From a virus, in the IMG/VR virus record IMGVR_UViG_3300031237_000264, positions 1 through 41,285 of that record: a stretch of 41,285 bases of DNA; one strand, written 5' to 3'. Shown in pieces: positions 815 through 40,997 of this stretch. The first letter of the stretch is position 1; each line of letters opens with the position of its first letter. The notes under the pieces are model-generated. The model saw nothing but the letters and a program-made list of their open reading frames with translations. It was not told the DNA's origin and searched no databases. The position numbers and the translations under genes are program-made.

Positions 815-835
815 CTTTTTAAGGATGTTAAAAAG
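815..835. promoter_or_regulatory. Perfect 8-bp inverted repeat over the dam ribosome-binding site
   Basis: Arms CTTTTTAA (815-822) and TTAAAAAG (828-835) flank a 5-base loop. Read on the minus strand, the second arm contains the AAAAAGG that serves the methyltransferase start. It could be an operator or an RNA hairpin hiding the ribosome-binding site. It is an AT-rich island in GC-rich DNA. Confidence 0.5.
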
Positions 836-915
836 TGGTAGCCTTCGCCCCGCTATGTCGACATGGCAGGGGGCCTTGGCCTTGGCTCACAGCTCACTCT
901 GTGGTCAGGTGACGG

Positions 916-935
916 CCTGGTGTTGACGCACCAGG
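916..935 (-). terminator. Hairpin between tail operon and dam
   Basis: Perfect 7-bp arms CCTGGTG and CACCAGG are separated by 6 bases in the 154-bp gap between the 74-aa tail gene and dam. No T-run follows on the minus strand, so it is a weak or Rho-assisted terminator at best, or an mRNA-stabilising hairpin. Apart from this and the repeat at 815-835, I see nothing else in the gap. Confidence 0.35.
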
Positions 936-955
936 TCGTCGCCCTCTTCACTGCA

Positions 956-1180
956 TCAAATCTCGATTTGCTCGATGGGCAGGTCGGGAGCCTCGCCCTC
1001 GATGACACCGTCACGGAAGAACACTCGGCCGTTGACCGTCGCGGCCCCGCGCGCCTGCTGCAGGCCGCCTCCTGGTAGCTGGATAGTGGCTACGCCTCCA
1101 GCGATGGACACCACCGTACCTACCTGCAGCGGTGGGTCGCCCAGAAGCGCCTTGAGGGCCTTATAGGGATTACCCAACAT
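956..1180 (-). CDS. Small tail-region protein, unknown function
   Basis: This is a 74-aa protein whose ATG at 1180 overlaps the end of the upstream hub-like gene by 11 nt, so it is probably translationally coupled. The sequence looks like a small beta-rich domain (VGTVVSIAGGVATIQLPGGG) ending in an acidic tail. The alternation of short strands and glycines resembles small OB-like domains of phage tail-tip proteins, but I do not recognise a family. Its place at the end of the tail operon suggests a virion or tail-assembly role. I see no membrane segment and no cysteines. Confidence 0.65.
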   Translation of the reverse strand: MLGNPYKALKALLGDPPLQVGTVVSIAGGVATIQLPGGGLQQARGAATVNGRVFFRDGVIEGEAPDLPIEQIEI

Positions 1181-3071
1181 GGGTTTCTACTCCGATGGAT
1201 TGCCAAGCCTCAGGGAAGACCGAGTCGACGGCCGTGCTCAGCACGAGGCCCTTACGAATGACACCTTCGTCGACGTAGCGAACGAAGCGGCCCGGTTCGA
1301 TGATGCCGGTCTCGGCCAGCACGGGCAGACCGAGCGTGACGAGCGCCTGGCTGCCCGTATCGCCCAACACCGTGGTACCTCGCTGCCGAGCTGCGTCGGC
1401 GTGCGTGATTAGTGGGTCAACGATCATAGGGGCCTCGACGTCGCCGGCGGTGCCCTGGCGCGTGACCTGAGCCAGGATGCCCTGTGCTGTGCCTGCAACG
1501 TAGACGCGGTTGTAGCGCGGCTTCTGCACCCACTCGATGCCTTCGCGCCTGGTCACATCCGAAGGCAGCTCAAAGTCCGGCACGACAGCATCCCAGTCCC
1601 AAGGGGCCTTCGGGTAGGTCGGCAGGACTCGAATGATTCTTTGGTTTGGATGTGGCTGGATGTATGCGCCTGCTGCCGCGGCAATGGTGTTTAACGCCGA
1701 GATGTAGCTGCCCTGGTGTGACCAGGCGCCAGCCGGTACCAGCCAATCGGTGATGCGCCAATCGATCTCCCAGCCAATGCTCACGCCGTTCAACGTGAGC
1801 ACGTCGGCCATGAGCTGCTGCGCGGTGCGCGCCTGCGCGTTGCCAAAGGTCTGCTTCACCGCAATCGGCTCGTCAAGCACGGCCGTCTTGCCCCTCCCGG
1901 AGACGCGCAAGGCGGCCGAGCCAAAGGTACGGTCACGAGAGATGCCGCTGGCTAACAGGCGGTATGCGGTGCCATTGATGACTGCCTCCAGCTCGACGGG
2001 CGTGCCGTCTTCGTAGGCCCGGACATAGGGCAACGCCTGCGCTGGCAGGCTCGCCTCGAAGCTCCACGTCCATGATTGCCGATCAATGCGCATGGAGAAC
2101 GATAGCGCTGGCAGCATGACGTCACCATCGACCCTTCGCAACTGCACATCGTTCATGACCATATATACCTTCCTTACAGGCACCACGACCGTTTGTCCCG
2201 GCTCGGGACCACTGGGGCATGGGTTGACGCGAAAATTGAGGGTGATGTCATCGCCCGCAAAATCGAGCCACGGGCAAACAAAGTCCAGCAGCGGTGTGCC
2301 TTCATATGGTGGCTTCGCTGGCTCGGTCGGGGGGGCGGCTTCGTGTCCGCTGGACGGTTGACGCGCTGCCTGCCAGCGGATGCGATTCGCCTCGGAAGTG
2401 AAGCGCCCGCGCTCCCAGCCTTCGCCCCAGCGACGGCGCGCCGCGACAGCCTGTTCATGCCCCAACGCATATGCCTTCCGCAAGTGAGGTGGGTATTCCC
2501 AGATGTCACGCTCCACGGCTATCAGGTGCCGCGCGATTTGCCACAGGCCCACGGCTGCGGCGCTCGCACGCACAGCTTCGTCATGCCGCGCGAGATTGCT
2601 GGCATGTAGGGGGGCAGACTGCTCAAATACCTGGTGCTTTTCGGTCCGGGCATTCCTGGCCTGGCGGATGAGAGCGTTGGTCTGCGCGCCGACGAGCTCG
2701 GCTTGTTGGTACTGGTCCTGGGCGATCCTGCGGAGATAGGCAGATTGCTCGAAGTGTTCGCCGGCGGTGCGGCCCAACGCTGCAGCGGGTCGGAAACGAT
2801 CATCCTTGGCAGCGCTCGGGCCGCGAAAGGTGCGATTGTCGTAGGCAGCGGCAACGTGCACGCTTTGTACCGTTCGAATCTGAAGCCTCATGCTGGCTTC
2901 GCGGACGGCGGGCTTCTGCGCTTCACTGCTGATCCGGAGGACAGGGGCAGGCTTGCTCAGCCGCAATACCGCAGTGGCCTGCGGCGCGTCGTCGCTGAGC
3001 GAAAAATTTAACTCTACACGCCCGCCTTCAGGCTGCGTGTATGGGCGCTTGAAATTGAGATCGGAGCTCAA
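1170..3071 (-). CDS. Tail-tip / hub-like protein
   Basis: This 633-aa protein sits near the distal end of the tail operon, where siphoviruses encode tail-tip hub and related proteins. The C-terminal half (about residues 290-633) has the long beta-rich composition and a VQKPRYNRVYVAG segment typical of hub/late-control-like proteins. The N-terminal third is rich in Arg, Ala and Gln and predicted helical, which is unusual for a hub and may be a separate domain. The apparent start is TTG at 3071, sharing a TTGA overlap with the stop of the upstream gene. The next ATG in frame is about 60 codons in, so the start is uncertain. Two TTA leucine codons here (at 1690 and 3007) lie in the TTTAAC motif. 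The specific hub role is inferred mainly from position. Confidence 0.7.
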   Translation of the reverse strand: MSSDLNFKRPYTQPEGGRVELNFSLSDDAPQATAVLRLSKPAPVLRISSEAQKPAVREASMRLQIRTVQSVHVAAAYDNRTFRGPSAAKDDRFRPAAALGRTAGEHFEQSAYLRRIAQDQYQQAELVGAQTNALIRQARNARTEKHQVFEQSAPLHASNLARHDEAVRASAAAVGLWQIARHLIAVERDIWEYPPHLRKAYALGHEQAVAARRRWGEGWERGRFTSEANRIRWQAARQPSSGHEAAPPTEPAKPPYEGTPLLDFVCPWLDFAGDDITLNFRVNPCPSGPEPGQTVVVPVRKVYMVMNDVQLRRVDGDVMLPALSFSMRIDRQSWTWSFEASLPAQALPYVRAYEDGTPVELEAVINGTAYRLLASGISRDRTFGSAALRVSGRGKTAVLDEPIAVKQTFGNAQARTAQQLMADVLTLNGVSIGWEIDWRITDWLVPAGAWSHQGSYISALNTIAAAAGAYIQPHPNQRIIRVLPTYPKAPWDWDAVVPDFELPSDVTRREGIEWVQKPRYNRVYVAGTAQGILAQVTRQGTAGDVEAPMIVDPLITHADAARQRGTTVLGDTGSQALVTLGLPVLAETGIIEPGRFVRYVDEGVIRKGLVLSTAVDSVFPEAWQSIGVETHVG

Positions 3072-5646: not shown

Positions 5647-5650
5647 CGGG

Positions 5651-6838
5651 TTACTCCCACGGCCCGGTCATGTCGATGAACACTCCACCAACACTGGTAT
5701 TACTGCCTTGTGCGCATGGAACGTACATGGCCTTCCTCATTCCAGATGGGAGAGAGACGGGCATGACCGCCATCGCGGCAAAGGAGAACACCGTGCGATG
5801 CAAGGGATAAAAGATACCCTTCAAATAGCCCCTCATAGCGATGTACCCGGTCGTGTATTCGATGATAGTCATCGGGCTCAGGCCTACAGCATTGGCCACC
5901 GCTGCAAGATCATTGGCCCCGAAAGTCTGGTTGGACCCTGAGAAGACATTGCTGGCAGCCAAGGCCACAGAACAATGGTAGGCGCGTCCGAATAGCACCC
6001 CTCCACCAGTTCTAGACGTGTACCCGGCATAAGTGGCCGAAGGCAATATGGCGCAATTACCCTGCGAATACGAGTTTGCGTAGGTGATTGCGGAAGTCAG
6101 CGGGCTGATGCTGCTCTCGGCTAGCAGGTAAACATTGCCGATTTCTGCGGGATTCACCGAAGCGAAGTCACCGAAGTAGTACAGGTTGTACACGAACAAC
6201 CCAGAGTTGCTGAATGTGAACAAGAAAAACCGCTTGTCGTCTCCAACCAAGACATACCGGCTAACTCCTGCACCCGCAGTAGTACCCTTGCACCAGCTCG
6301 TGGTCTTAGTAAAGACCGTGGGAGTTCCAGGCCAGATTCCGGTGCCGGCTGTGATGGAGGTCATGGCCTCTGCACCCCATACAGCAGCTCCGAAGGTGGT
6401 CGTATCGTCGATCACCAGGTAGTTCTTCTTCGAGGTGGCATTCAGCGAGCGATAGGCCGCCAGGTTCGTCCCCGAGAACGGCTTCTCCCATCCCAGCGGG
6501 GCCTGCTTGACCGTGATCGTGCCGGTGGCAGTAGCCGGGGCGCCAGTGATGGCAAACGTGAACGTGTTCAGGTCAGGGGCGCTCAGGACCTGGAACTCGC
6601 TGTTAAATACTGCTTCATTGGCGTTGGCAAACAATACCCACATATCGGGCATGAACCCGTGGTTGTTGCAGATCACAGTGGCAATGCCTCCGCTCACTGC
6701 AATTGATTGCAGAGTCTGCAGGTTGGCACCGTTGACCAATGCCGAGTCCAGAAATGCAATCAGATTCCCTGCCACGATGCTAGCTGCCGTAAGACCGGCA
6801 TGCCTGGCGGAGTCGAAGCACTTGATATTCGCAGTCAT
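5651..6838 (-). CDS. Tail protein, paralogue of the adjacent upstream gene
   Basis: This 395-aa protein is clearly related to the neighbouring 392-aa product. Both have an N-terminal half with an HG-x-x-x-G/D turn, a (N/S)EAVFN or NESVFN segment, then GAPA(T/A)ATG, a QA-x-L-x-WEK-x-FS motif and (T)NLA-x-YRS. Its ATG (6838) abuts the TAA of the paralogue, so the two are co-translated. The N-terminal part resembles small beta domains found in virion proteins; the C-terminal half is Ala/Gly/Ser/Tyr-rich without recognised motifs. A structural role in the tail tip or fibre is inferred from position and duplication. Codon use is more A/T-rich than in the tape measure or capsid genes. Confidence 0.7.
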   Translation of the reverse strand: MTANIKCFDSARHAGLTAASIVAGNLIAFLDSALVNGANLQTLQSIAVSGGIATVICNNHGFMPDMWVLFANANEAVFNSEFQVLSAPDLNTFTFAITGAPATATGTITVKQAPLGWEKPFSGTNLAAYRSLNATSKKNYLVIDDTTTFGAAVWGAEAMTSITAGTGIWPGTPTVFTKTTSWCKGTTAGAGVSRYVLVGDDKRFFLFTFSNSGLFVYNLYYFGDFASVNPAEIGNVYLLAESSISPLTSAITYANSYSQGNCAILPSATYAGYTSRTGGGVLFGRAYHCSVALAASNVFSGSNQTFGANDLAAVANAVGLSPMTIIEYTTGYIAMRGYLKGIFYPLHRTVFSFAAMAVMPVSLPSGMRKAMYVPCAQGSNTSVGGVFIDMTGPWE

Positions 6839-8017
6839 TTACATGCTCCAGGGGCCGGTCACGTCGAATCCATTTAACCCGTTTGCATTGCCGGAGCTCT
6901 GAATGGTCACTAGAGCGATACTCCTGCCGGGCAACTCGGGGGAGACCACCATCTGCTCAGCGGGGATGTTACTTGCCGCCCCAAAATTCACAGGAATAAA
7001 CAACGCGCCCGGAATGTTCCCTCTCAAGCCAAGCCCCTCCCAGAGTTGGCAGGGGAACAGCGTGATCACATTACCCGCCCAGTTGGGCCACGGAGAGCCT
7101 GCAGCCCCGCTGGCGGCAGCCGCAGAGTTGCAATTGATACTTCCTTTTGACCCCCAGGTAATCGAAGGGTATGTCCCCATCATGTTGCGCAGAATCGCCG
7201 TAGACCCGCCAGTGGTAGCCCCTGGGTTGAAGTTTCCGTAAGCGACAGCGGACCCTGGATAGGTCTCCAAAATAGCTGAATGGTTGCCCAGGAACATGGC
7301 GTTGTAGGCGTCACCTACCTTGTAGGAACGAAACTCTCCCATTCCATACCAAGCCCGAACGTTCGGGCTGGCCGTGTTAAATGCGGGCAGGAAATAGAAC
7401 AGCCTGGAGTTACCAATGACGATCCAGGGTTTCGCTGTGGTTTCTGCCGCCACGCCCGATTGCCACACCCCGTAAGCCTGCCCAGCCACGGCGCTGTGGT
7501 CCCCTCCAACCCCGGTGGACACCGAGTTCATGGACTCATACATCCGCATCCGTGCCCAGTAAGCGAACGTGTTGTCCACGCTCAGCACCGGCTTGATAGA
7601 GCGCGGGTCAGTGGACCTGTAGCAGGCCAGGTTCGTATTGGAGAACTGCTTCTCCCAGTTGAGGGCGGCTTGCTTCGACGTGATCGAACCACCAGTGGCC
7701 GCAGCGGGGGCTCCAACAGGGGCCACACAGGTGTAGGACACCGGAGATGGGACCGTCTGCACGACGAACTCATCGTTGAACACCGACTCATTGGCACCGG
7801 CAATAGCCAACACTTGGCCGACCACCATGCCGTGGGCAGTCGTGGTCGTCACGGTCATCACGCCGTCCGCCACCGTAATTGATTGCACGGCTTTCGAGTT
7901 GTACCCGTTCAGCAGCACAGCATCCAGCAGACCGATGATGGAGCCGGCCGCCCCGATTAGCGAGGGAGCACCGGCATCCGTGCTACGAAATACTTTGATT
8001 GCGTCAGGCAGGCTCAT
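6839..8017 (-). CDS. Tail protein, paralogue of the adjacent downstream gene
   Basis: This 392-aa tail protein shares its layout with the 395-aa product immediately downstream. Around residues 50-100 it has a beta-domain with TTAHGMVVGQ and ANESVFNDEF, followed by GAPAAATGG, a QAALNWEKQFS motif near residue 117 and NLACYRSTDP near 127. The tandem pair probably arose by gene duplication followed by divergence. They could form a hetero-oligomeric tip or be alternative adhesins. It starts 2 nt after the stop of the 1221-aa gene. The last residues (FDVTGPWSM) echo the DMTGPWE end of its paralogue. Function is not established. Confidence 0.7.
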   Translation of the reverse strand: MSLPDAIKVFRSTDAGAPSLIGAAGSIIGLLDAVLLNGYNSKAVQSITVADGVMTVTTTTAHGMVVGQVLAIAGANESVFNDEFVVQTVPSPVSYTCVAPVGAPAAATGGSITSKQAALNWEKQFSNTNLACYRSTDPRSIKPVLSVDNTFAYWARMRMYESMNSVSTGVGGDHSAVAGQAYGVWQSGVAAETTAKPWIVIGNSRLFYFLPAFNTASPNVRAWYGMGEFRSYKVGDAYNAMFLGNHSAILETYPGSAVAYGNFNPGATTGGSTAILRNMMGTYPSITWGSKGSINCNSAAAASGAAGSPWPNWAGNVITLFPCQLWEGLGLRGNIPGALFIPVNFGAASNIPAEQMVVSPELPGRSIALVTIQSSGNANGLNGFDVTGPWSM

Positions 8018-8019
8018 GA

Positions 8020-11000
8020 TCAGGCGTCCACGTCACCACGGATTTGCAGGCGGAAGGAATCGCTTTGGCTTGACGCCGCGCTCTGAAGCACAGTGCGGGC
8101 CATCCAAATTGGAAAGTTGGCGGCGGCGGTGTTAAACCGGAGCACGTTCCCGGCCGCCCAACCGCCCCCCCAGCCTGTCGCGCGCAGCGTGAAGTAAGGC
8201 AGGCCGGTGCTTGGGTTGGTCGGGATGCAGTCCGCGCTGACGGCGCCGGTGGCCACCTGGCCAACCGACTCCCCGATGACCTGGAAATTCTGGCTGTCCG
8301 TGAACCGTAGCGCCCACCGCTCCTGCAGGCAGGACTTGTCCGTCAGCACCAAGGGGTACGTCGCAAAGTTGTAGGCCGAACTCGGCGCGCCGCCGACCGG
8401 GGCATCTGCCCAGGCGTTTCCCCATGTGGTCTGGGTGAAGTTCAGGGACATGCGTGCCTGCAGATCGCCCATGATCAACGCCGACGACACCTGCGTTTCA
8501 TTGGCGGGGTAGTCGTGCGTGAGCTGGCGCATCAGCGTGAGCTGGCCGGTAATCTGCACGTCGGACAGAAGGGCCATGTCTTCGATGCGGTTCTCGACGT
8601 AGATCGGCGCCACCATTCCCGTCGTGTTGACCGTGCCGAATGTCAGCTTCCCCGCGTCCAGGTCGGTCGTGTACATCGACGGGTCCATCACGACCGGGTT
8701 CGGCCTGGTGCTGTCGATGACGCGGATCTCGGCCACTCGCGTGCGGCCGACGTCGACGATGAGGCCGCTGGCCGGCGTCACCGCCTGGCGCGCGGTGTGG
8801 TGCACCACGGCCACGTCGCCCTGACGGTAGATCGGGACACGACCGTCCTGTGGCAAACGCACAGGGTCCAGCCCAAGCAACGAGGCATCGAGCGGCAAGT
8901 AGGTGTAGGCGACTGCGTTAAACAGAAGCTGGTCGGCGAAGACTGGCAGGGGCTGGAAAATCTTCCCGTCAGCGGTCACTGCCGCGGCGTTGTACCAGAT
9001 CGCGTTCTCGTTCCCTGCCGCCGTCACCATTGCGCCGAAGCGCATCTTCACGACACCGGATGCGTAGTCGATGACGCCGGAGCACTTGCCGTCGATGTTC
9101 AGTCTGCCGGTGCTGTCGGCTGTCACGCTGTAAGGCGTGCCGGCCAGCGGTACCACTCGAACCTGCAGCGATCCAGGGCGCACAGGCGCGGCCGGAACTC
9201 GGAAGACGATCCAGTCTGCCGGCTGCCCCGTGACCGTCGTCAGCAGCGCCCTCATGGTGACGGCGTTGCTGCCTCCGGCCGGCCAGCCCGTCAGCGACAC
9301 CACGCCCGTGCCGTAGACAATGGTGCCGACCTGCGTTGCGGCGCCCGTGGCCGGGTCGAGATCGGTGTAGATGTAGCCCGAGCGGTCGAAGTAGTTCTTG
9401 TCGCCCCAGGTGAATAGCACCGAGCCGGGCACAATGGGTTCGTCGAAATTGCGCGTGATGTCGAACGTCAGATTCGACAATGCATAGGTCTGCCGCGTCG
9501 TGGCAGTGGTCTGCCCCACCACCATGTACTCCACGTCTACCGAGCCTGTCAGATCAACGGGGAACGTTGCCGCCGCATCGTAGTAGCTCAGTCCGGTCAA
9601 CGTGTTTCGGTAGACCGGGTCATTGCTGCCGGTGGCAGCGTCGAGGAACCCGCTGTTCGCCGACTTCGCATAGCCCATCAGCTCGGACTGGTAGACGGGC
9701 TGGGGCACGCTGACAATCGTGTCCGGGTTAAAACCGATGACGCCGGTGCTGTAGTTCACCGCGCCGCCCGTCACGGCAATGAGCGAGCCATTTGCCTGCG
9801 GGCGGCCGAGAACGCCGTTGCCATCGTCGCGGGCATCGATGTACGGGTCCACCGAGATGTACTGCATCGCCGCCGGCACATTCGAGATCGTCTCGTAGTC
9901 CGCGATGACCACGTTCCACCGCACGCGCACCGAGTTGGGCAGGATATTGATGTCATCGAGCGGCAGGCTCAGCTTGCCCGTGCCGTCACGGGACGGCGCT
10001 GCGAAGGTCTTTTTCTTCTTGAGGCCGTACTGGTAGTCCAGCGTGAACACCGTTCCGACAGCCGCCACCACGTTCGGTGTGAGCTCGACCTGGTAGGCGC
10101 CATTGACCCACCGTACATAGCCCGTCCCATCTCCGGCCAAAACGCCCATCGTGTTGGCGGTTGCAACGTAGTTGCCGCCGCCCGGGTTCGGCCAGGTGAT
10201 GCTGACGCTGTTCTGGATGAGCGTCTGGTCGTTGCCCTGGTCGATATTGAACAGCACGCGCGGCGCCTGGATCGTGTTCGCCGTGCGGTCGAAGTATTGC
10301 GACGGCGTCGACCAGAAGAACATGACGGATGAACCGACGTCGGGCAGCGCGCCGAGCGTCACGATTACGGTGCCGGTGACGTAGTTGATGGTGCCCGCGC
10401 CGACCGAGGTGTCGCCGCCCTTTAGCACGCCAATGGTGCCAGTGCCGCCCTGGTCGTTCAGCTCGAACCAGTTGCCTTGGGCCATGAAGGCGACCCGCAG
10501 CGCCCGTGGATTGGGCGGAGGATTCAGCGTGATGGTGTAGAGGCTCGCGCGCGTGGAGGCGTCGACGTCGATGGATGCACTCTCCGATACCTTGATCGGG
10601 CTGGCCGCCGCGACGAAGTTGACCGTGAGCGTGCCGGACACGGACGCCGTGATGGTGAACTTCCCCTGCACATAGTCGATGCTGCCGATCACCGACCCGT
10701 TTTGCACGATGTTGCCCGTGCCATCGTCAGCCGGCGTGCCGGTGGCGTTGATGGAGAAGCTGCCCGGCTTGATCCCGATGCCGAGGTAGAGCGTGGTCGG
10801 CCAGGCCGCCGAGATCACCAGGGGACGCGACAGCACGCTGCCGACAGGAACTATCGGCGCCATATTGCCGGCGGCGTTCAAGTCCGCCAGGGCCGTCTCC
10901 GACTGCGCGGCCGGCACCAGTTGCGAGTAGATGGAATCGACCACTACCCGGATGTCCCCCGCGGATGCGGCCTGGACCATCTTCTGGATGCCGTAGTAGA

Positions 11001-11685
11001 CCGCTGCATCTGCGACGCGCGTATCACGACACACCGCGATCGCCTTCAGGTCGTCGTAGGGGCTCGCCACCGGGCCGACGAAGTCGTAAAGCAGCTTGTT
11101 CGCAATGGTGCAGGTGACAACAACCGCGGTCCATTTAACGTTGGCCGATGTCGTGAACTCGCGCGTGACCGACTCGACCTTGGTGACGCGAACATACTGA
11201 GAGTATTCCGTGGCCAGCGACTCATAGGCGACGAGGCAAAGCGTTTGCCCGACCTTGGGCAGCGGGTCGGCCGGCTTCTGCAGGATCTGGATCGCCTTCT
11301 GACCCGTCAACTGAGTTTCCAGGAGCTGGCCCGGCCATTTGATGCCCTTGGTGACATAGCTCTCGACGCGGTTTCTTGCATCGGTGCGCACGTCCGACCA
11401 GGACTTGGTAGAGAACAGGGTCAAGGAAACGGCCGGATCTTCCGGCCCTCTCAGCACGATGGCATGCGCGCCGAGGTAGCTGTCGGTGTTGGTCACTTGC
11501 ACCGACGGATATGCCTTGCGCAACGCGATGCGGCCGTACACGCGGTCCAGCTCTGAGACGTCCGGGAAGAGGTTGTTCGACGCACCGTCGACCACTTCGT
11601 TGGCGGTGATGCGGCCACCACCGTTGTCGGTGTCCAGGAGGACTTCCGACTTCATCAGTTTGATGTCACCCGACTGGATGGCCAT
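8020..11685 (-). CDS. Large tail-tip structural protein with repeated beta modules
   Basis: This 1221-aa protein lies two genes downstream of the tape measure, where long siphophage tail-tip proteins are encoded. Residues 1-290 look like a distinct alpha/beta domain. From about 300 on, a short motif of the form G-x-I/V-x-Y-x-x-G-x-V recurs at residues 334-344, 429-441, 640-650, 786-797 and 868-879, with a weaker copy near 526. This suggests a string of homologous beta-sandwich modules. No protease, hydrolase or chaperone motif is visible. The ATG at 11685 follows the previous stop by 3 nt. It probably forms the tail shaft tip or fibre; this rests on position and repeat architecture. Confidence 0.7.
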   Translation of the reverse strand: MAIQSGDIKLMKSEVLLDTDNGGGRITANEVVDGASNNLFPDVSELDRVYGRIALRKAYPSVQVTNTDSYLGAHAIVLRGPEDPAVSLTLFSTKSWSDVRTDARNRVESYVTKGIKWPGQLLETQLTGQKAIQILQKPADPLPKVGQTLCLVAYESLATEYSQYVRVTKVESVTREFTTSANVKWTAVVVTCTIANKLLYDFVGPVASPYDDLKAIAVCRDTRVADAAVYYGIQKMVQAASAGDIRVVVDSIYSQLVPAAQSETALADLNAAGNMAPIVPVGSVLSRPLVISAAWPTTLYLGIGIKPGSFSINATGTPADDGTGNIVQNGSVIGSIDYVQGKFTITASVSGTLTVNFVAAASPIKVSESASIDVDASTRASLYTITLNPPPNPRALRVAFMAQGNWFELNDQGGTGTIGVLKGGDTSVGAGTINYVTGTVIVTLGALPDVGSSVMFFWSTPSQYFDRTANTIQAPRVLFNIDQGNDQTLIQNSVSITWPNPGGGNYVATANTMGVLAGDGTGYVRWVNGAYQVELTPNVVAAVGTVFTLDYQYGLKKKKTFAAPSRDGTGKLSLPLDDINILPNSVRVRWNVVIADYETISNVPAAMQYISVDPYIDARDDGNGVLGRPQANGSLIAVTGGAVNYSTGVIGFNPDTIVSVPQPVYQSELMGYAKSANSGFLDAATGSNDPVYRNTLTGLSYYDAAATFPVDLTGSVDVEYMVVGQTTATTRQTYALSNLTFDITRNFDEPIVPGSVLFTWGDKNYFDRSGYIYTDLDPATGAATQVGTIVYGTGVVSLTGWPAGGSNAVTMRALLTTVTGQPADWIVFRVPAAPVRPGSLQVRVVPLAGTPYSVTADSTGRLNIDGKCSGVIDYASGVVKMRFGAMVTAAGNENAIWYNAAAVTADGKIFQPLPVFADQLLFNAVAYTYLPLDASLLGLDPVRLPQDGRVPIYRQGDVAVVHHTARQAVTPASGLIVDVGRTRVAEIRVIDSTRPNPVVMDPSMYTTDLDAGKLTFGTVNTTGMVAPIYVENRIEDMALLSDVQITGQLTLMRQLTHDYPANETQVSSALIMGDLQARMSLNFTQTTWGNAWADAPVGGAPSSAYNFATYPLVLTDKSCLQERWALRFTDSQNFQVIGESVGQVATGAVSADCIPTNPSTGLPYFTLRATGWGGGWAAGNVLRFNTAAANFPIWMARTVLQSAASSQSDSFRLQIRGDVDA

Positions 11686-11688
11686 GCG

Positions 11689-16907: not shown

Positions 16908-16924
16908 GTGCGGTTTAACCGCAC
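16908..16924. promoter_or_regulatory. 17-bp palindrome upstream of tape measure, centred on TTTAAC
   Basis: GTGCGGTT and AACCGCAC are perfect 8-bp arms around a single central T, 31 bp before the tape measure ATG and just after the frameshifted chaperone ends. It could be a protein-binding site or an RNA stem (6 bp with a TTTAA loop). Confidence 0.45.
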
Positions 16925-18157: not shown

Positions 18158-18195
18158 CTTGATGCTCCTTTGGGTTGCGGATGCGGGGCCGGCGT

Positions 18196-22650: not shown

Positions 22651-22679
22651 ATTTAACCGCTGTTTAACGGGCCGATCAA
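22651..22679 (-). promoter_or_regulatory. Candidate promoter with two tandem GTTAAA sites
   Basis: On the minus strand TTGATC (22679-22674) and TTAAAT (22656-22651) are separated by 17 bp, each matching the sigma70 hexamer at 4 of 6 positions. Two GTTAAA motifs start 11 bp apart inside this region, on the same DNA face. It lies in the gap before the protease gene. The promoter match is modest. Confidence 0.35.
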
Positions 22680-31891: not shown

Positions 31892-32742
31892 AGCAGCTCC
31901 TCTTGCGCGCTCCTGGCGGCATCGATCTTCGCGCGCACATCGTCAATCGTCGTCGCGCGGTCCACGTTAAATACTGCCTGGATAGCCCTCTGCTCTGCCG
32001 TCATGGGCTCGTCGTTGATATAGGCCAGCATCGCGCCCATGAGAGCGACGAAGCGAACCGCATCGTGGCCGTCCTGGTGGCAAGGCTGCGCCGCAGCCGG
32101 GAGGGCACGAATCCCCTCCGCGACCTCGTACAGTTCCGCGCTGTATTCCTCGTGGGTCACGGAGCAAAACTCGAACGTGCCCGTATCTGGATCAGCTGCG
32201 CCAAACTCCGAATCGTGGTCCTCTCGGCGCTTGTCCACCCACTTCGCAGCAGCTTCGATGCCGTCCGCGAACGTCAGCGCCTTGGCGCTCGGTTGCAGGG
32301 TGACAGAGTGGCGCAATGCCCATTCCGCCTTTTGCGCCGGACCCATTGTGTATCCGGGCCGATCATCGGGGAGTTGGTCCAAGGCATCGAGTGCATTCGA
32401 CAATGCATCGAAGGAGCTGGAGTCCAACACGTGGATACGACCGTCCTCACCCTCGCGTTCTTCGGAGTCTTCCAATGCGAGGAACGCAGTGGATGCCACC
32501 TTGACCAGCAGGTCAACGACGGCCCGATTTGGCGCCACTTTAGAGGACTCCTCGGGAGAGGGGATGTCCGCGGCGCCGGTCGCAATGGCGCCGGTCGCTG
32601 CCGCGACGGCAGCGCATGCTGCTCGACGCATCGTTTCCTGCGTCGACAGGGGAAATTGGCCCCACGTCTGCCCGTTGGCCCACGCCTCCGGGTAGAGCAC
32701 CTGGCAAACCGCAATCGCGGCGCGCTCTTTCTTTGTGTCCAT
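31888..32742 (-). CDS. Early protein, unknown
   Basis: From ATG 32742 (with GGAG 5 nt upstream) this encodes 284 aa, beginning MDTKKERAAIAVCQVLYPEA. It is helical and acidic, with Cys residues at scattered positions and a terminal helix DDVRAKIDAARSAQEEL. A longer upstream reading frame is low-complexity Arg-rich and is not believed. No known family is recognised. The GTTAAA at 31966 codes Phe-Asn. Confidence 0.65.
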   Translation of the reverse strand: MDTKKERAAIAVCQVLYPEAWANGQTWGQFPLSTQETMRRAACAAVAAATGAIATGAADIPSPEESSKVAPNRAVVDLLVKVASTAFLALEDSEEREGEDGRIHVLDSSSFDALSNALDALDQLPDDRPGYTMGPAQKAEWALRHSVTLQPSAKALTFADGIEAAAKWVDKRREDHDSEFGAADPDTGTFEFCSVTHEEYSAELYEVAEGIRALPAAAQPCHQDGHDAVRFVALMGAMLAYINDEPMTAEQRAIQAVFNVDRATTIDDVRAKIDAARSAQEELL

Positions 32743-33530: not shown

Positions 33531-33749
33531 CTACGCGTCTTCCCAGCGGTAGCTCGGTGGCCCGAGGTGGGCCAGCTCGCCGCCGGCCGCATCGAGCAGC
33601 TTGAATTTCAGGCGGCCGATGGAAGCCTTGACCAGCGCCTCGCAGGCCGCTTTAACTTCCTGTTCGTGAGCGGCGCCACAGCGCAGCACGTTCGACCAGG
33701 AGCCGCTGCTGTTCAGCTTCAGTTGCATCTCGGTGAAGTCCTTGTCCAT
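33531..33749 (-). CDS. Small early protein, unknown
   Basis: The 72-aa protein runs from ATG 33749 (AGGAGA 7 nt upstream) to TAG. It begins MDKDFTEMQLKLNSSGSW and has a central helix (EQEVKAACEALVKASIGRLK) and a C-terminal beta segment (FKLLDAAGGELAHLG). Val-Lys is coded by GTT AAA within the dispersed motif. No family is recognised. Confidence 0.65.
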   Translation of the reverse strand: MDKDFTEMQLKLNSSGSWSNVLRCGAAHEQEVKAACEALVKASIGRLKFKLLDAAGGELAHLGPPSYRWEDA

Positions 33750-33759: not shown

Positions 33760-34044
33760 CTAGCGCAGGCGGAGCACGGGGCTCGGTTTGTTTTCCAGGG
33801 TGAGGTCGTCATCGCGGCTGTTGCCCGGCTCTCGCTGGCGGATGTGCTGCGGTTTAACCATTTTCAGCTGCACTTCCGGTTGCTCGCCGATGACGAATTG
33901 CGGCGGCGAGTAGCCTGTCTGCTCACATTCCACGGCATTGGTCATCAGCTCCACAAGCTTCATTCCGCCAGAGGCGGGAAGGAGATATTCCCGATAGCCA
34001 ATGCGCACGACACACATGGGGACAGCCTTCTTCGTGGTTGCCAT
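33760..34044 (-). CDS. Small early protein, unknown
   Basis: This 94-aa protein begins MATTKKAVPMCVVRIGYREY and contains LVELMTNAVECEQTGYSPPQ and a basic end. The pattern of strand-helix-strand suggests a small alpha/beta domain. It starts 9 nt after the stop of the DUF3164 gene, so it is expressed with it. No catalytic motif is seen. Confidence 0.65.
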   Translation of the reverse strand: MATTKKAVPMCVVRIGYREYLLPASGGMKLVELMTNAVECEQTGYSPPQFVIGEQPEVQLKMVKPQHIRQREPGNSRDDDLTLENKPSPVLRLR

Positions 34045-34053: not shown

Positions 34054-34677
34054 TCAGATCTTGGCAAGGTCGAGCGAGATAGGGCGGTACTCTTCCGTGT
34101 CGCCCACACGCTCGTAGAAGCGGACATAGGTCTTGGTGCCAACAACCTGAACGCTGTCGCTGATGGCGAACATGGCCTGTTTCCACCGCTTGTCCTGGAT
34201 GTCCAGGCGGCGCAGCGACAGGATGCGGCCGTGGTTGAGCTTGCCTTCCTTGTCGGTGTCGAAGGCGCCCTGGATGATGGTCTTGATCTCCGCGCGGGAG
34301 CCTTCCGTCCATTCGGCGAGCAGCTCGTCGATGATCTCCTTGGCGGCCTGCAGGCGCTCGTCGAAGGTGATGTTGTCCGCCCGCGCGATCTGCACCTTCA
34401 GGGAGCCATCGAACGAGAACAGGGTGACGTTGCCCTTGGCGCCGCCGACCTTGGCGCCGTACTCCTCTGCGGACATAGAGATGAATGCCTCGATGTCACC
34501 GAAGACGCGCTTCTTGAAGTCGACCAGGAGGTCGTGGTGCCGCTTGGCGAGAGCGGCCAGCTCGCCGACGATCTGGTCGCGGGTGCGGTCGATGGGTTTA
34601 ACCATCGCCTCGGGAATGAGCCGGGCGCGAGCGTCTTTCAGGTAGCCCGCGGGAATGCTGATTGCGGCTTGGGTCAT
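34054..34677 (-). CDS. DUF3164 protein
   Basis: This 207-aa protein matches the DUF3164 pattern: IPAGYLKDARARLIPEAMVK, then IVGELAALAKRHHDLLVDFK, and a conserved DIQDKRWKQAMFAISDSVQV with a TKTYVRFYER. DUF3164 genes are common in Mu-like phages near the early DNA-protection genes, but no activity is known. There is no Gam-like gene in the window, and this may occupy that functional niche; that is speculation. Confidence 0.88.
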   Translation of the reverse strand: MTQAAISIPAGYLKDARARLIPEAMVKPIDRTRDQIVGELAALAKRHHDLLVDFKKRVFGDIEAFISMSAEEYGAKVGGAKGNVTLFSFDGSLKVQIARADNITFDERLQAAKEIIDELLAEWTEGSRAEIKTIIQGAFDTDKEGKLNHGRILSLRRLDIQDKRWKQAMFAISDSVQVVGTKTYVRFYERVGDTEEYRPISLDLAKI

Positions 34678-35831: not shown

Positions 35832-36163
35832 GACGCGCTCCCCATGAGCTCCTGCAGGCGGGTAAGCAGCCGGTCGCGTTCCTTGGTGTATTCGAGCTCC
35901 AGCCACACCAGGTTGCGCTCGGCCTGGAGCAGCTCGTTGCGTTGCCACTCGATGTCACGGTTTGCGCGCAGCTGCTCACGTCCCAGGCGGCGCAGGGCGT
36001 ACCGCGTGGCGACGAGCGAGCAAGTGCGGCGGATCTCGGCGCCAATGCGGCGCAGGCCGGCACGCAGTTCCATGCCGATGGGACCATCGAAGCGAAGCGC
36101 CACGGGCAAAACAACGGTGCCGCGTTGGCGGTTGAGCAGGACACTGCGGTGGTTGCGTTTCAT
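35828..36163 (-). CDS. Early helical protein, unknown
   Basis: This 111-aa protein is rich in Arg and Leu: MKRNHRSVLLNRQRGTVVLP is followed by long helices (RYALRRLGREQLRANRDIEW, LLQAERNLVWLELEYTKERD) that look like a coiled coil. It is basic overall, perhaps DNA- or RNA-binding. It overlaps both neighbours by 4 nt. No family is recognised. Confidence 0.65.
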   Translation of the reverse strand: MKRNHRSVLLNRQRGTVVLPVALRFDGPIGMELRAGLRRIGAEIRRTCSLVATRYALRRLGREQLRANRDIEWQRNELLQAERNLVWLELEYTKERDRLLTRLQELMGSAS

Positions 36164-36660
36164 GTGCTCTCCTTTGACGTCAGGTCGATTTGTGGGGCGC
36201 CCACTTCGGGCAACGGCAGGGTCTTGTTGTCGATGGCCGCCATCGGCAGCTCGGCGGCGTCCGCCTTCTTCGCGCGGCGTTTAACCACGATGGGTTGCGG
36301 CGGGATCGGGCGCGGCTTGTACTCGCAGCCCTGGCACGCCTGCCAGTGGTGCATCTTCATGGGGTTGTGATTCGGCGCCTTGCCGTTGGCCTTCTCGCGG
36401 CAGTGCGCGGTGTCGACCCTGGCGCCATCGAACGGGCACACGATGCTCTCGAATGCCTGGCGGTAGCGCCGCTCGATGCGCACGGTGCTGGCCTTGCCGC
36501 TGCCATAGGCGCCCAGGCCGTTGAGCAGAATGGACAACGTCGGGCGAGAGATGCCCATCCGCTCCGCCACCACGGCGACCTTGCTGGCCGCGACCTCGCG
36601 GCGCAGGCCCTGGAACCAGTCGGCGGCCATGTACGCCGGCTTTTTAACCTCACTGTTCAT
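36160..36660 (-). CDS. HTH protein with a Cys4 motif
   Basis: The 166-aa protein has a helix-turn-helix at about residues 26-47 (SKVAVVAERMGISRPTLSIL). Four cysteines follow at residues 75, 87, 109 and 112, the last pair as CQGC, a plausible zinc site. Lys/Arg-rich VVKRRAKK comes later. It is a candidate regulator of early expression or a DNA-binding accessory. It overlaps the upstream gene by 11 nt. The Cys4/HTH pairing is not one I can name. Confidence 0.7.
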   Translation of the reverse strand: MNSEVKKPAYMAADWFQGLRREVAASKVAVVAERMGISRPTLSILLNGLGAYGSGKASTVRIERRYRQAFESIVCPFDGARVDTAHCREKANGKAPNHNPMKMHHWQACQGCEYKPRPIPPQPIVVKRRAKKADAAELPMAAIDNKTLPLPEVGAPQIDLTSKEST

Positions 36661-37291
36661 CGTCCATCCCCTTCGGCTCGATCCACATGACGCGGTTGTA
36701 TTTCGGGTTGGGGTCGAACACCTGGCGGGTGCGCTGGATCATCGGCGCGCGGGGGCCGGTGTCGAGCTTCAGGTAGTAGCGAGCGGGGACCGCACTCCGA
36801 CCAGCGACGGCAGGCTTGGTCTCCTGCAGATACCCGGCGGCGGCCAGGCACAGGACATACGCCTTGGCGGTCTCCTCCAACACGGCGTGCGAAGCGGTGC
36901 TGGAGAATCCAGCCAGCTCGCGGAAGTTGAAGTCGCAGGATGGCCGGCTGAACATGCGGCGCATGGTGCCCCACATGGCTTCTGTGCCACGGCCCTGGGT
37001 GACTAGCTCCCCGCGTTTGTTCACGCGGGGCGCCTCAACGCCGTTATCCCGGACGAGGCGGTAGGTCCGGCGCTTTGCCAGCCGACCCACCGCTTCTTCC
37101 GCGATAACGGTGATGAACTTGCCCGCCAGCAGGCTCTTGATGTAGTCCTCGATGGCGCCTTCCATGCCGCCCACGACCTCGGCCAGTTCGCGCTGCGTGA
37201 AGTGATCTCGGTTCGCGCGAATGGCCTCCCAAATGCGCTGGCGCGGGGACTTTCCCCCCTTGATTTCCAGGCTGGCAGGCTTACGCGACAT
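36650..37291 (-). CDS. Early protein with winged-helix-like N-terminus
   Basis: This 213-aa protein has a possible winged-helix at residues 15-75 (SPRQRIWEAIRANRDHFTQR, then ELAEVVGGMEGAIEDYIKSL, and strands to TYRLV). A second helical domain (TEAMWGTMRRMFSRPSCDFN) follows. It directly follows the B gene, overlapping it by 11 nt, so it is likely expressed with transposition genes. Function is not known. Confidence 0.7.
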   Translation of the reverse strand: MSRKPASLEIKGGKSPRQRIWEAIRANRDHFTQRELAEVVGGMEGAIEDYIKSLLAGKFITVIAEEAVGRLAKRRTYRLVRDNGVEAPRVNKRGELVTQGRGTEAMWGTMRRMFSRPSCDFNFRELAGFSSTASHAVLEETAKAYVLCLAAAGYLQETKPAVAGRSAVPARYYLKLDTGPRAPMIQRTRQVFDPNPKYNRVMWIEPKGMDDEQ

Positions 37292-38051
37292 ACGTTGCCT
37301 CCGCGCCCTTTGCCTTGCGCTTCGTCGTCACGGTCGCGGCCTGGTAGAGCTCGCGGTCGCCCCACAACGCGAGCGTCATCTCCGACTCGGCCTGCATCAT
37401 GGCCTCCTCGTGGATGCGAGCGAGGTTCACGCAGACGCGCCGGACGGACCCAGCGGCCCGCGCGACGACGTGCTCCAGGAGGTCATCTGCTACCGTGACG
37501 CCCTTGCAGTAGATCGGCAGCAGCTTGCGAGCATCGTCCATAGAGACCGACGCGGCTTCGATGCGCGCCAGGACGCGGCTGTCGAATGCCTCCCAGGTCT
37601 TCAGGCGGGCGGGAATGCGCTTGTCGCCCACCAGCAGCATCGTGCCGTGGCTCGCCTCGTAGATGTCGCGCACCAGCTCGATCATCGAGTCGCTGCGCAG
37701 GCAGTTGTTAAATTCGTCGATGATCAGCGGCCGCCGGCTGCTGCGCAGCTGGTCGGCGACCTGGTCGAGCATGTCCGGGATGGTCCGCTCTGGCTCGATG
37801 CTCATCTCGGCGAGGATCTTCGCCAGTAGCGTCTTGCGGTTCCAGGCGCTGCGCACCTGAACGTAGTAGCCACGCATTTCGGTGGCGACGGCGTTGCAGG
37901 CGACGGTCTTGCCGGTGCCCGGGTCTCCGAACATCACACCAATGCCGGGCAGGCCGTTGACGCGGGCCAGCAGCTTCTCCAGGGTCACGGCGACCAGGTG
38001 GAGGTTGGTGATGGGCGCGATCTGATTGACCGTCGCGGTTCGTTGCGTCAT
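37281..38051 (-). CDS. B: Transposition ATPase, MuB-like
   Basis: This AAA+ ATPase, 256 aa from ATG 38051 (AGGAG about 10 nt upstream), delivers target DNA to the transposase and gives target immunity in Mu. The Walker A motif is GDPGTGKT (residues 42-49) and Walker B is PLIIDEFNN (108-116). A SRVLARIE segment after 158 could hold the arginine sensor. It is shorter than Mu B (312 aa), lacking much of the N-terminal region. A longer start at 38090 has no ribosome-binding site. Confidence 0.92.
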   Translation of the reverse strand: MTQRTATVNQIAPITNLHLVAVTLEKLLARVNGLPGIGVMFGDPGTGKTVACNAVATEMRGYYVQVRSAWNRKTLLAKILAEMSIEPERTIPDMLDQVADQLRSSRRPLIIDEFNNCLRSDSMIELVRDIYEASHGTMLLVGDKRIPARLKTWEAFDSRVLARIEAASVSMDDARKLLPIYCKGVTVADDLLEHVVARAAGSVRRVCVNLARIHEEAMMQAESEMTLALWGDRELYQAATVTTKRKAKGAEATYVA

Positions 38052-38117
38052 GATTCGTGCTCTCCTGATGTGTTTGCGCGGCTGGTGCAACAGTCGCGCG
38101 GGATATGGCGGCCGCCC

Positions 38118-40250
38118 TTAGGCGGTTTTCCGCCGGAACGTCCGGAATTCGGCGGTCTCCTGATAGGTGTGCCGCCATTTCTTTGCCTTCTCGCTGTCGA
38201 TTTCCTCCTCGTTGAGGTTCATGAGACGTTCCCACTCGGCCAGTCGGGCCTCGGGGGTTGTCGGTGTGGACCAGGACGGCGCCGGCGTGACCGGCAGCGC
38301 GACTACCTCCGCCTGGGCCGCGATGGGCTCGGTAATCACCACTTCGCGCTCTTGCGCGCGCTGCTCCAACTGCTCGCGGGTGATGTTCAGGAAACCAGGG
38401 CTGACGAAGCTGCCCGGCTGTTCCAGTGCCGGTGTGCCACGCCGCTCCTCGCGGACCTCCTGCAGCTTTGCTTCGAGCCGCTTCTCGCGGCCGGCGGCGC
38501 GGTTGTCCCGCGCGCGTTCGATAACCGATTGCGGCATGTAGTCGTGCTTGTTCGCGTCCAGCTCGGCCGTGCAGATGAATCGGCCGGTGTCGTCGTACAC
38601 CCAGACCATTTGCGGATCGTGGATGTCGTAGCCAACGGCCAGCTGCTCGCCGTGGAACTCCTCCAAGTCGCGGTTGAAGTAGCGGTTGCCGAACAGCTCC
38701 AGCTCGGCCCGGCGCACGGTGCGCAGAGTCTGTGGGCGGAAGAGCGGCTCCGCCTCGTCGTCGTGCACGCGATGGGGCTCGAAGCCGTTCTGGACGAACT
38801 GCTCCCATTTCTCGTTTGGCGTCATGTGCCGGCGGCGCCCGGATACCGAGTCGACGATCTTGGGCAGGCTGCGGTGTGGCCGGTCGTTATAGGCCGCGAC
38901 CTTCTGCTCGGCGAAGTCGACGAATTGCGACCAGGTGAGCAGGGGCATGGCGACGACTTCGCCCTTCGCTGCGATGGCCTTGCGAGAAAGCTTGAACGTC
39001 GCCAGCTTGGCCTCGCGGTCCATGTCGCGGCCCATGTAGCCGGGGATCTCGCGCGCGGCTTTTACCCAGATGGTCTGGTGCAGTTTCTCGATGACGCCGC
39101 GCGCCTGGGAGTTGTACGGCAGGCTGTTGTACATCTCCATGCCAAGGCGGCCCATGAGGCCGGTGGCCTCTTCGGTCATCATGTCGTTGACGTAGCCTGA
39201 GCCGTTGTCGACGTAGAAGATCGCGCAGATGCCCGCGTTGAGGCAGGCGGAGCGCACCGCGTCGAGCACGGTGATTGCGCTTTCTGCCAGGCCGACCGAC
39301 CAGCCGACCACCTTGCGCGTGGCGACATCGACGATGGTGGTGATCTCCGGCCGGAAAGGACGGCCGTGGAGCGGGTGCTGGACCTCGGCGTCGAAGGTGT
39401 GGCCGTCACCGCTGTAAATGTCCCCTGGCAGCAGGTGCTCAAAGCCCCGGCGCACGAAGGGCTTGATCGTCTTGAGCTCGCGCGCGCCCATGCGCCCGGT
39501 CTCCCGGGTCACGTTGCCGATCTTGTCTAGAAAGCGGCGAACCTGATGGATGCTCGGCACCGTGACGCCAGGTAGGCGCTTCAGGTCGTTCGAGAAGCCC
39601 TCGTAGGCGTGGGCCACGGAAGGTTTCTCGGGCCGCTGGTAGTAGCCGAGGAAGAACGGTGCCCATTCGGGCACGGACATGTCCTGTGCCGCGCGCTTGG
39701 GCACCAGGGTGCCGCTGCGCTCGTATTCGACGAATCGCAGGATGCTCCGGACGGAAGGCAAGCCATCCGGGCTGCTGCGGCCGCGCTCGTCCCGGGCCAG
39801 CTTGAGCATGGCGATCATGGACTCGCTGGCAGTGCCCAGCCGCGCCATGTCGAGCAGGATCGTGGCGGCACGCTTCCTGGTGTAGCGCGAGCGTTCCATC
39901 AGGCTGTTGAGAGCGGACAGCACGCCCTTGCGGGCATCGGCCTTGAGGGTCTGCGCCTTGGTCGCATCGATTCGCGGGAGCGCGGCCGTGGGCGCCGGCA
40001 ACATCGGTGCTGCAGCGGTGGCCACCAACCGTTCCCCTGTCTTGGCGCGGATGGCATTGACGATGCTCTGCGGCGGCGCGTACAGACGACGGGTGCCACC
40101 TAGACCAGTCGCCTCAACAGACGGCCAAGCCTCCTTCTCGGCCTTTGTTCGTAGCGCCACTTTGCTGGTCGGCAACCCAGGCAAACGCATGGCTGCCAAC
40201 TCTCCTGCGCTGTAGTGCGATTTGATCGTGGCTTGGGGGCGCGCGCTCAT
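38118..40250 (-). CDS. A: Mu A-type DDE transposase
   Basis: The 710-aa transposase joins phage ends to target DNA. The N-terminus (about residues 10-60) is a Mu-type winged DNA-binding domain (HYSAGELAAMRLPGLPTSKV). The catalytic RNase H-fold core has Asp282 in SGDGHTFD, Asp348 in FYVDNGSG and Glu388 in GVIEKLHQ, matching the Mu DDE triad. The Mu-type C-terminal beta-barrel (about 500-600) and a helical Arg/Glu-rich tail that may contact B follow. The start overlaps the upstream stop by 4 nt. Confidence 0.96.
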   Translation of the reverse strand: MSARPQATIKSHYSAGELAAMRLPGLPTSKVALRTKAEKEAWPSVEATGLGGTRRLYAPPQSIVNAIRAKTGERLVATAAAPMLPAPTAALPRIDATKAQTLKADARKGVLSALNSLMERSRYTRKRAATILLDMARLGTASESMIAMLKLARDERGRSSPDGLPSVRSILRFVEYERSGTLVPKRAAQDMSVPEWAPFFLGYYQRPEKPSVAHAYEGFSNDLKRLPGVTVPSIHQVRRFLDKIGNVTRETGRMGARELKTIKPFVRRGFEHLLPGDIYSGDGHTFDAEVQHPLHGRPFRPEITTIVDVATRKVVGWSVGLAESAITVLDAVRSACLNAGICAIFYVDNGSGYVNDMMTEEATGLMGRLGMEMYNSLPYNSQARGVIEKLHQTIWVKAAREIPGYMGRDMDREAKLATFKLSRKAIAAKGEVVAMPLLTWSQFVDFAEQKVAAYNDRPHRSLPKIVDSVSGRRRHMTPNEKWEQFVQNGFEPHRVHDDEAEPLFRPQTLRTVRRAELELFGNRYFNRDLEEFHGEQLAVGYDIHDPQMVWVYDDTGRFICTAELDANKHDYMPQSVIERARDNRAAGREKRLEAKLQEVREERRGTPALEQPGSFVSPGFLNITREQLEQRAQEREVVITEPIAAQAEVVALPVTPAPSWSTPTTPEARLAEWERLMNLNEEEIDSEKAKKWRHTYQETAEFRTFRRKTA

Positions 40251-40771
40251 TCCGATGCCTTATTCATCTTGCGCATCAGGTGGCCGAACAGCTTCTCGTC
40301 CATCTGGCCTTCAATCGTCTTCTGGCGCGCGCGGATGTGGCGGTCCAGGACTGCCATAGCGCCGAACTCGGCGCAGAGCGCTTCGTCGGCGGTCAGCACC
40401 CTGCGGCTGAAATGCCCGGCCATCCATTCCAGCGGGCTGTAGTCCTGGCAGGCCGTCATCAGGGCCATGAAGGCATCGACCGGAATGCGGCGATCCGCCT
40501 GGCTAGGTGCGACCCACAGGTCGAGGTGAGCCTTGGTGATGGGGCGGGCCACGAGGGCGGTCATGGCATCCGCGACGCGCTCCCGCGACAGCCCCTTGTT
40601 AAACGCGGTGTCGAGGACAGCGGAGAGGGCTTGGCGGATGCCGGCGTCCAGGGCGTTCTCGCCCTTCACCGCGACGGCACCGGCCGGGGTCTCGACGACG
40701 AACACGTCGAAGTTGAGGGGGAGCTGGTTGACGTCCGGCTTGGCGCCGTTCGGCTGGCGGCGTTTCGTCAT
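40247..40771 (-). CDS. Early protein upstream of transposase, unknown
   Basis: This 174-aa protein lies between ner and A. It has a basic N-terminus (MTKRRQPNGAKPDVNQLPLN), a FDVFVVETPAGAVAVKG strand segment and several helices, including one with SRERVADAMTALVARP that resembles a helix-turn-helix or a repeat of the kind seen in DNA-binding adaptors. Similar proteins occur at this place in B3-like phages. It overlaps the transposase by 4 nt. The function is unknown. Confidence 0.72.
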   Translation of the reverse strand: MTKRRQPNGAKPDVNQLPLNFDVFVVETPAGAVAVKGENALDAGIRQALSAVLDTAFNKGLSRERVADAMTALVARPITKAHLDLWVAPSQADRRIPVDAFMALMTACQDYSPLEWMAGHFSRRVLTADEALCAEFGAMAVLDRHIRARQKTIEGQMDEKLFGHLMRKMNKASE

Positions 40772-40773
40772 GG

Positions 40774-40962
40774 TCAGCCTTCCATGACGAAGCGACGGAC
40801 CTGCTCAATCGTGAGCTCGCCGGAGATCAAGCTGGCGAGGGAGTAGACGGCGTAGGCGTACTTGAATTTCTTGTCGCCCATCTCCTTGTTCGGGTTCTTC
40901 ACGGTGTCGAGTTTCGTGTAGATCTTGGCGGCTACTTCGAGGGCGGTTTCGCGGTCTGACAT
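40774..40962 (-). CDS. Small early protein, unknown
   Basis: This 62-aa protein starts at ATG 40962 (GGGAAAG before it) and ends 2 nt before the next gene. It begins MSDRETALEVAAKIYTKLDT and has a second helix (FKYAYAVYSLASLISGELTI). It is helical, with no cysteines and no clear membrane segment. No family is recognised. Confidence 0.7.
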   Translation of the reverse strand: MSDRETALEVAAKIYTKLDTVKNPNKEMGDKKFKYAYAVYSLASLISGELTIEQVRRFVMEG

Positions 40963-40997
40963 GGCACTTTCCCGTTGTTAAAATTGGCGTGAGCGAA

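Follow-up and report, generated by a model that had tools for sequence, protein, structure and literature searches.

The DNA considered here raises the question of why nearly every occurrence of a four-base sequence in a viral genome should be embedded in one and the same hexamer. The window, by which we mean the whole stretch analysed (positions 1 to 41,285 of IMG/VR virus record IMGVR_UViG_3300031237_000264; 41,285 bp, GC content 64%), contains 37 TTAA tetranucleotides, and 35 of them lie within GTTAAA or its complement TTTAAC; the two exceptions are TTTAAG at 818 (CTTAAA class) and GTTAAG at 4307 (CTTAAC class). A first-pass annotation, made from the letters of the window, had reported these figures and our recount reproduces them exactly. 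It also bears out the usual extended form, RTTTAAC (29 of 35 sites), the presence of sites in both orientations (17 and 18, with every gene on one strand), and their spread over several coding phases, with 12 sites encoding Phe-Asn, eight Val-Lys, eight including a TTA leucine codon, and seven lying outside genes or at gene ends. Eight of the 11 TTA codons in the window fall within the motif.

The hexamer is far more frequent than either composition or protein sequence predicts. An order-2 Markov model gives an expectation of 1.3 for GTTAAA/TTTAAC in the window, against 35 observed. For short, GC-rich loci with very low counts Markov expectations are unstable, and the codon null is firmer: shuffling synonymous codons with the proteins unchanged yields 4.0±1.8 GTTAAA in the window genes (maximum 10 in 500 shuffles, with genes called by a simple predictor of our own, not a curated annotation), against 28 observed. 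The shuffle therefore does not give counts like those seen, and the earlier view that protein sequence alone cannot account for the pattern is upheld. GTTAAA is the most enriched of all 6-mers in the window against this null. TTAA in all contexts is close to expectation in the genes (30 versus 27.2), with only two in contexts other than GTTAAA where about 23 are expected. Because a general scarcity of TTAA is also found in B3 (3 versus 16.7 under the codon null) and DMS3 (6 versus 21.4), the short supply of other contexts is background. Selection against all other TTAA contexts, which had been offered as a possible cause, thus amounts to a general feature of high-GC genomes common to relatives that are not enriched, and the specific part of the observation is the GTTAAA surplus. 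For most relatives CGTTAAA is a better description of the core motif, and for the window GTTAAAY.

Is the surplus a property of the phage or of its host? The window is a Mu-like transposable siphophage resembling D3112 and the Casadabanviruses, with homologues of MuA and MuB, a Mu-type terminase, a portal, a minor head protein and GemA; its MuA, MuB, terminase, portal and minor head protein are of D3112 type, and the nearest relatives of the portal are from Betaproteobacteria, Undibacterium first. Of the TTAA in two Undibacterium genomes, 52% and 43% are GTTAAA in the stretch holding a Mu-like prophage versus 15% and 11% in the chromosome, where the counts of the hexamer equal the Markov expectation (56 versus 53, and 50 versus 50). 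Within one of the prophages, that of G007, there are 3-13 GTTAAA per 2.5 kb, with 0-3 outside and a drop at the borders, and the density likewise tracks the prophages in G008, G177 and G173, the last having CGTTAAA as its top 7-mer. The chromosome counts exclude a host-wide bias, another of the explanations proposed at first, wherever the host is known, which is not the case for the window itself. Under the codon null, GTTAAA is in excess in three relatives (41 versus 14.9, 76 versus 25.0 and 73 versus 18.9) and tops the list of 6-mers in these and in most further phages of the group; DMS3 (3 versus 2.7) and B3 (0 versus 1.6) show no such excess, and a strong word of the form CGTTANN is absent from DMS3, JD024, RcapMu and Mu.

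The fate of individual sites points the same way. In nucleotide alignments of phages within the enriched set, 446 of 1,227 GTTAAA (36%) are retained at the corresponding position, about 2.5 times the 14.5% retention of other hexamers with one G/C, whereas in alignments with relatives that are not in the set only 3 of 233 (1.3%) are retained, versus 5.8% for the control hexamers. The aligned phage pairs are not independent, so these retention figures are not p-values, but the reversal between the inside and the outside of the enriched set is large and the sites are selected. Taken with its restriction to the prophages, GTTAAA is almost certainly a phage-specific word under selection.

If the word is selected, some protein presumably reads it. 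A presence table of 16 phages, together with an alignment of an early protein, singles out the product of the gene at 36160-36660 (minus strand), a 166-residue protein with a helix-turn-helix (HTH) and a CxxC zinc-type motif that matches the profile phrog_2119 (E value 5.6e-33) and has no Pfam match. Its distinguishing features are a long-loop HTH (NGLGAYGSGKAST) and a conserved C-terminal peptide, IDNKTLPLPEVGAPQI. All enriched phages of the 16 have the longer HTH loop and a C-terminal extension, or tail, ending in IDKVTLPLPEVGAPQI or similar, and the non-enriched ones, DMS3 among them, have neither; IDKVTLPLPEVGAPQI is conserved while the remainder of the protein drops to 37% identity. In a blind test, 80 viral loci were recruited by similarity of this protein alone. 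All 11 tail-bearing loci proved to be enriched, by 3.6-10x, and when pooled the long-loop classes are enriched 5.4-6.3x and the short-loop loci (n=64) 1.21x (tail versus no tail, Mann-Whitney p 5e-6). The association of the word with one subtype of the protein now extends over about 100 loci. From this co-occurrence we infer that the protein binds the word, and it is probably the reader, although we refer to it as a candidate.

Other genes were tried in this role. The Dam-like methyltransferase was rejected as the cause of the word, as the strongly enriched prophage of G007 lacks it, and the portal and other structural genes were rejected because G379 and G177 are enriched despite having different head genes; an initial scan of genome contigs with the tail protein gave no matches. 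We also note that G177 carries tandem paralogues of the candidate reader (contig C13, 64208-65010), one with a short loop and no tail, the other with a long loop and a tail.

The word is not the same in all phages with such a protein. When the recruited loci were searched without bias for their top 7-mer, most tail-bearing phages gave CGTTAAA, several short-loop clades gave CGTTAGA, and L273 gave GCGTTAC/CGTTACC; a directed table confirmed these variants and placed L196 (from G779) in the CGTTACC type. The counts are well above expectation, with 15 CGTTAGA versus 1.1 in L284 and 15 CGTTACC versus 1.1 in L273, and in G779 CGTTACC is found 22 times in the prophage (2.8 expected) versus three times in 80 kb of host (2.8 expected). 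On the tree of the candidate reader, 31 strong word labels need 3 changes, versus 8.2 (minimum 6) when they are shuffled. Two further patterns were seen among related loci. L158, whose early region is the closest to that of the window, carries GTTAAA and GTTAAG (CTTAAC) 11 times each in 11.5 kb, and its word is perhaps relaxed or shifting; and in the Mu-like loci L222, L224, L226 and L281 the Neisseria uptake word, GTCTGAA/TCTGAAA, is among the top 7-mers, replacing the CGTTA word.

What might a Mu-like phage gain from such sites? In Mu, insertion into the phage's own 37 kb is prevented by 'genome immunity', which MuB explains only partly (PMC7350765), and what distinguishes Mu DNA from other DNA is not known (PMC2837660). 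For Ab30, sequencing the flanks of packaged DNA put self-insertions at 0.4% (PMC5977238). Several observations bear on a link between the candidate reader and transposition. With a shallow model, Foldseek at first returned weak, generic HTH matches only; a deeper AlphaFold2 model (mean predicted local distance difference test score 83.7) has a lambda-repressor-like HTH for which the top structural hit is 2mqk, the N-terminal domain of Mu MuB (Z 5.9 over 58 residues), a weak match tied with other HTHs. A family profile places the 2mqk domain second best in the PDB, again weakly and in a tie (E value 0.01), and among phage open reading frames it matches the N-terminus of Mu MuB with an E value of 7e-4; this is the sole match to the reader family in Mu, of which the first 12 kb were scanned alongside B3, DMS3, JD024 and RcapMu. 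The architectures are complementary, the stand-alone reader going with a MuB that has no N-terminal domain: in 68 of 69 MuB-like open reading frames in reader-bearing loci, Walker A is preceded by fewer than 70 residues, versus 100 in Mu MuB and 155 in B3, which includes an HTH. Finally, one pair of sites in the window forms a conserved tandem, GTTAAA-N5-GTTAAA (22652-22668, minus strand, with sites at 22652-22657 and 22663-22668), between the G-like gene and the protease gene; in Mu, this interval contains the gyrase site. Directly downstream of the portal gene in two other relatives, L027 (9226) and L029 (2164), there is an 11-bp tandem CTTAAA(A)GGGT repeat, possibly a cognate of this pair. 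The similarities to MuB are suggestive of the reader's HTH being a stand-alone counterpart of the DNA-binding N-terminal domain of Mu MuB.

We therefore favour an explanation in which a phage-encoded HTH reader marks the DNA of its own phage for the transposition machinery, and give it as a whole a probability of about 45%. The GTTAAA words would be dispersed recognition sites on the phage's own genome, maintained by selection, and the reader would coat its 30-95 sites during replicative transposition. The coated genome of 37-41 kb could then be told apart as self and arranged as a single domain (a 'Mu domain'), and the MuA/MuB machinery would spare the marked DNA, either because it is withdrawn from the pool of targets or because it is held as a domain. 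Most GTTAAA-type readers have the conserved C-terminal peptide, which would probably dock a conserved partner. The role in transposition is one we infer, and the self-labelling step taken by itself is held tentatively, the odds leaning somewhat against it. In its general form the proposal, which we put forward in an equally tentative spirit, is that a clade-specific 7-base self-label (CGTTAAA, CGTTAGA, CGTTACC and others), written genome-wide and into coding sequence, is recognised by an HTH reader split off from MuB and provides a sequence-coded genome immunity.

Several observations weigh against labelling by this protein. Trees of MuA and MuB fit the variant labels equally well, with 3 changes each, so that the trees reveal co-inheritance of word and early module but not which member reads. 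DMS3, JD024, RcapMu and G246 carry the reader and have no strong word; dispersed sites are thus not obligatory for the reader family, and the system is gained or lost within it. L223 and L228 are of the loop type and only weakly enriched, and the match to the MuB N-terminal domain is tied with other HTHs of the lambda-repressor and LacI kinds.

On the plus strand the GTTAAA sites of the window lie at 827-832, 6602-6607, 7376-7381, 8131-8136, 8917-8922, 9727-9732, 11688-11693, 14055-14060, 16620-16625, 16782-16787, 18505-18510, 24028-24033, 24539-24544, 31966-31971, 37707-37712, 40598-40603 and 40977-40982, and on the minus strand, besides the tandem pair, at 1690-1695, 3007-3012, 6873-6878, 11134-11139, 14935-14940, 16914-16919, 18195-18200, 24299-24304, 25316-25321, 27389-27394, 27887-27892, 33651-33656, 33853-33858, 34597-34602, 36280-36285 and 36643-36648, the last two within the candidate reader gene. 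The three large gaps pointed out in the first-pass annotation are real, but they do not reflect any special spacing, the coefficient of variation of the gaps being 0.92 versus 0.96 for random placement, and neither regular nor helical spacing is found in the window. Pairs of the CtrA type (TTAA-N7-TTAA) are limited to a single case in the window (22653/22664), the other 33 sites being unpaired. In each of eight phages examined, and clearly in seven of them, sites are denser between genes (2-6/kb) than within them (0.5-2.4/kb), as is expected where coding constraint is absent.

The candidate reader gene lies a short way downstream of MuA and MuB in an early region on the minus strand, in which a transcriptional regulator (phrog_2030; 36650-37291) separates it from the MuB-type AAA+ target protein (37281-38090), which has no N-terminal HTH and has Walker A at residue 55; at higher coordinates are the MuA-type transposase (38118-40250) and a Ner-like HTH repressor truncated by the end of the record (40998-41285). 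The same order of transposase, MuB, regulator and reader occurs in RcapMu, where the reader is annotated as a 'LacI-like regulatory protein'. The Dam-like methylase at the other end (window 1-810) is B3-like; it is 70-79% identical to homologues in several otherwise diverged phages and more conserved than any structural gene, and it looks recently mobile. Separately, the order-2 model reveals strong avoidance of nearly all 6-bp palindromes in the window (observed versus expected: CCATGG 0 versus 49, GGGCCC 0 versus 36.5, GGATCC 0 versus 31, ACCGGT 0 versus 30, CGATCG 2 versus 82), which suggests heavy restriction pressure.

How do other explanations fare? A host-imposed cause, be it an oligonucleotide bias, a host DNA-binding protein or restriction pressure, could appeal to the many strong carriers within one host genus and to the avoidance of palindromes. 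We nevertheless consider it very improbable: besides the chromosomes being at expectation, other prophages of the same genus are not enriched (9 versus 7.8 in L119, about 1-2x in the HK97-type L132-L137, 19 versus 9.7 in L131), the word changes with the phage clade, and restriction removes sites and does not add them. The original suggestion of dispersed sites for a phage or host protein is accordingly supported for a phage protein, for which there is now a named candidate, and contradicted for a host cause where the host is known. A phage-specific mutational process that makes the word without any function, equally hard to credit, would suit the occurrence of sites on both strands and in all open phases, but the sites outlast control hexamers within the enriched set and not towards other phages, and a 7-bp specificity that varies with the clade of a DNA-binding protein would be hard to obtain by mutation. 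That MuA, MuB or the Mu-type repressor, and not the small HTH protein, reads the word is distinctly improbable. All are co-inherited with it, as the equally fitting trees of MuA and MuB illustrate, and the early operator repeats of G007 and G008 (GTTAAGTG) contain GTTAAG, which is near GTTAAA. Other carriers, however, have unrelated operators while the word stays CGTTAAA, with CAATAC in G370, AAGTGTTAC in G379, AGTGAATTCA in G177 and GGAACACTT in G173 (the comparison covers relatives; the window ends inside its Ner-like gene, before its own operator). The word was accordingly rejected as a repressor or MuA operator, and also as a MuA end site, the end repeats in G007 being a different sequence, TTTGCRARATAATTGTC, that does not contain it. 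In that prophage the putative repressor (146 residues; L078 7247-7687, plus strand) has an N-terminal LPGLP-K HTH domain in common with MuA, as in Mu. Nor does the identity of MuA or MuB track enrichment: L159, L161 and L162, whose MuA and MuB are 62-71% and 65% identical to those of the window, are only 2-5x enriched on few sites, whereas G379, at 55% and 37%, is strongly enriched, and similarity of MuA or MuB was set aside as an explanation even though the trees cannot separate them. Because the operators differ between phages sharing the word, the repressor and MuA are unlikely readers, and because MuB is here a bare AAA+ domain with no specificity domain, the small HTH/zinc protein is the best candidate.

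Two further explanations keep this reader and change what it does. It could read the sites to silence or compact the prophage, in the manner of stoperators or nucleoid proteins, and so damp transcription in the lysogen. The phage-specific, dispersed sites and their higher density between genes agree with this, and the L5-type stoperators are a precedent (PMC9283540). Yet the sites have no orientation with transcription, on which L5 stoperators depend, the majority are intragenic, the reader sits in the early replication operon away from the repressor, and the operators differ from the word; we consider silencing unlikely. It is rather more doubtful that the reader serves to tether phage DNA through its C-terminal peptide to a conserved partner such as gyrase, SMC or a replication or segregation factor, much as Noc and SlmA connect dispersed sites on a chromosome to a partner. 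The conservation of IDKVTLPLPEVGAPQI in an otherwise diverging protein would fit, as would the location of the conserved tandem in the gene interval that contains the gyrase site of Mu; and since MuB differs between carriers (that of the window is 39% identical to that of the carrier G007 and 64% to that of the non-carrier G246), MuB is not an obvious partner of the peptide. Readers with no tail, however, also go with words, namely CGTTAGA, CGTTACC and, in L231 and L233, CGTTAAA.

How a Mu-like phage avoids its own 37-kb genome over many jumps is a long-open question, and labelling by an HTH reader would supply an answer, in that a transposing phage would mark its own DNA when jumping into other DNA. 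CGTTAAA, selected genome-wide, is a candidate for the sequence feature involved, with its candidate reader next to MuA and MuB, and as there are natural variants of both, the question of self-avoidance becomes directly testable. There is also a computational handle, since the word outlines prophages in a chromosome and the specificity of a reader could be obtained from genome statistics alone.

Nothing apt was found when the literature, with few subscription journals covered, was searched for comparable dispersed motifs in phages, but several known systems invite comparison. DNA uptake sequences and Chi are likewise short words over-represented genome-wide, but they are enriched in the host genome, and Chi is oriented, whereas GTTAAA is enriched in the prophage only. 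A boxA/nut-type RNA element is ruled out by the equal orientations, which are not confined to the transcribed strand. Marking by Noc, SlmA and MatP shares short specific sites spread over one replicon, a single protein and a possible partner; these proteins belong to different families, however, and mark bacterial chromosomes, acting on division or segregation. The stoperators of L5 and the cluster A mycobacteriophages (PMC9283540) likewise comprise about 25-35 short asymmetric sites across the genome, with a phage HTH protein that reads them, a part which in the window would fall to the candidate reader. They differ in being oriented with transcription, intergenic and bound by the immunity repressor, where the window sites are unoriented and mostly intragenic and the candidate reader is an early-operon protein other than the repressor; judged from the differing operators of its relatives, the word is not an early operator of the immunity repressor. 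A further parallel is the genome immunity and 'Mu domain' of Mu (PMC2837660, PMC7350765, PMC3820752), a phage that also has MuA and MuB, some 37 kb of self DNA to tell from that of its host, and a central conserved element in the same gene interval. No dispersed specific sites have been described in Mu, and none of the CGTTANN kind were found in our scan; and the HTH that is fused to MuB in Mu is a separate protein in the phage of the window.

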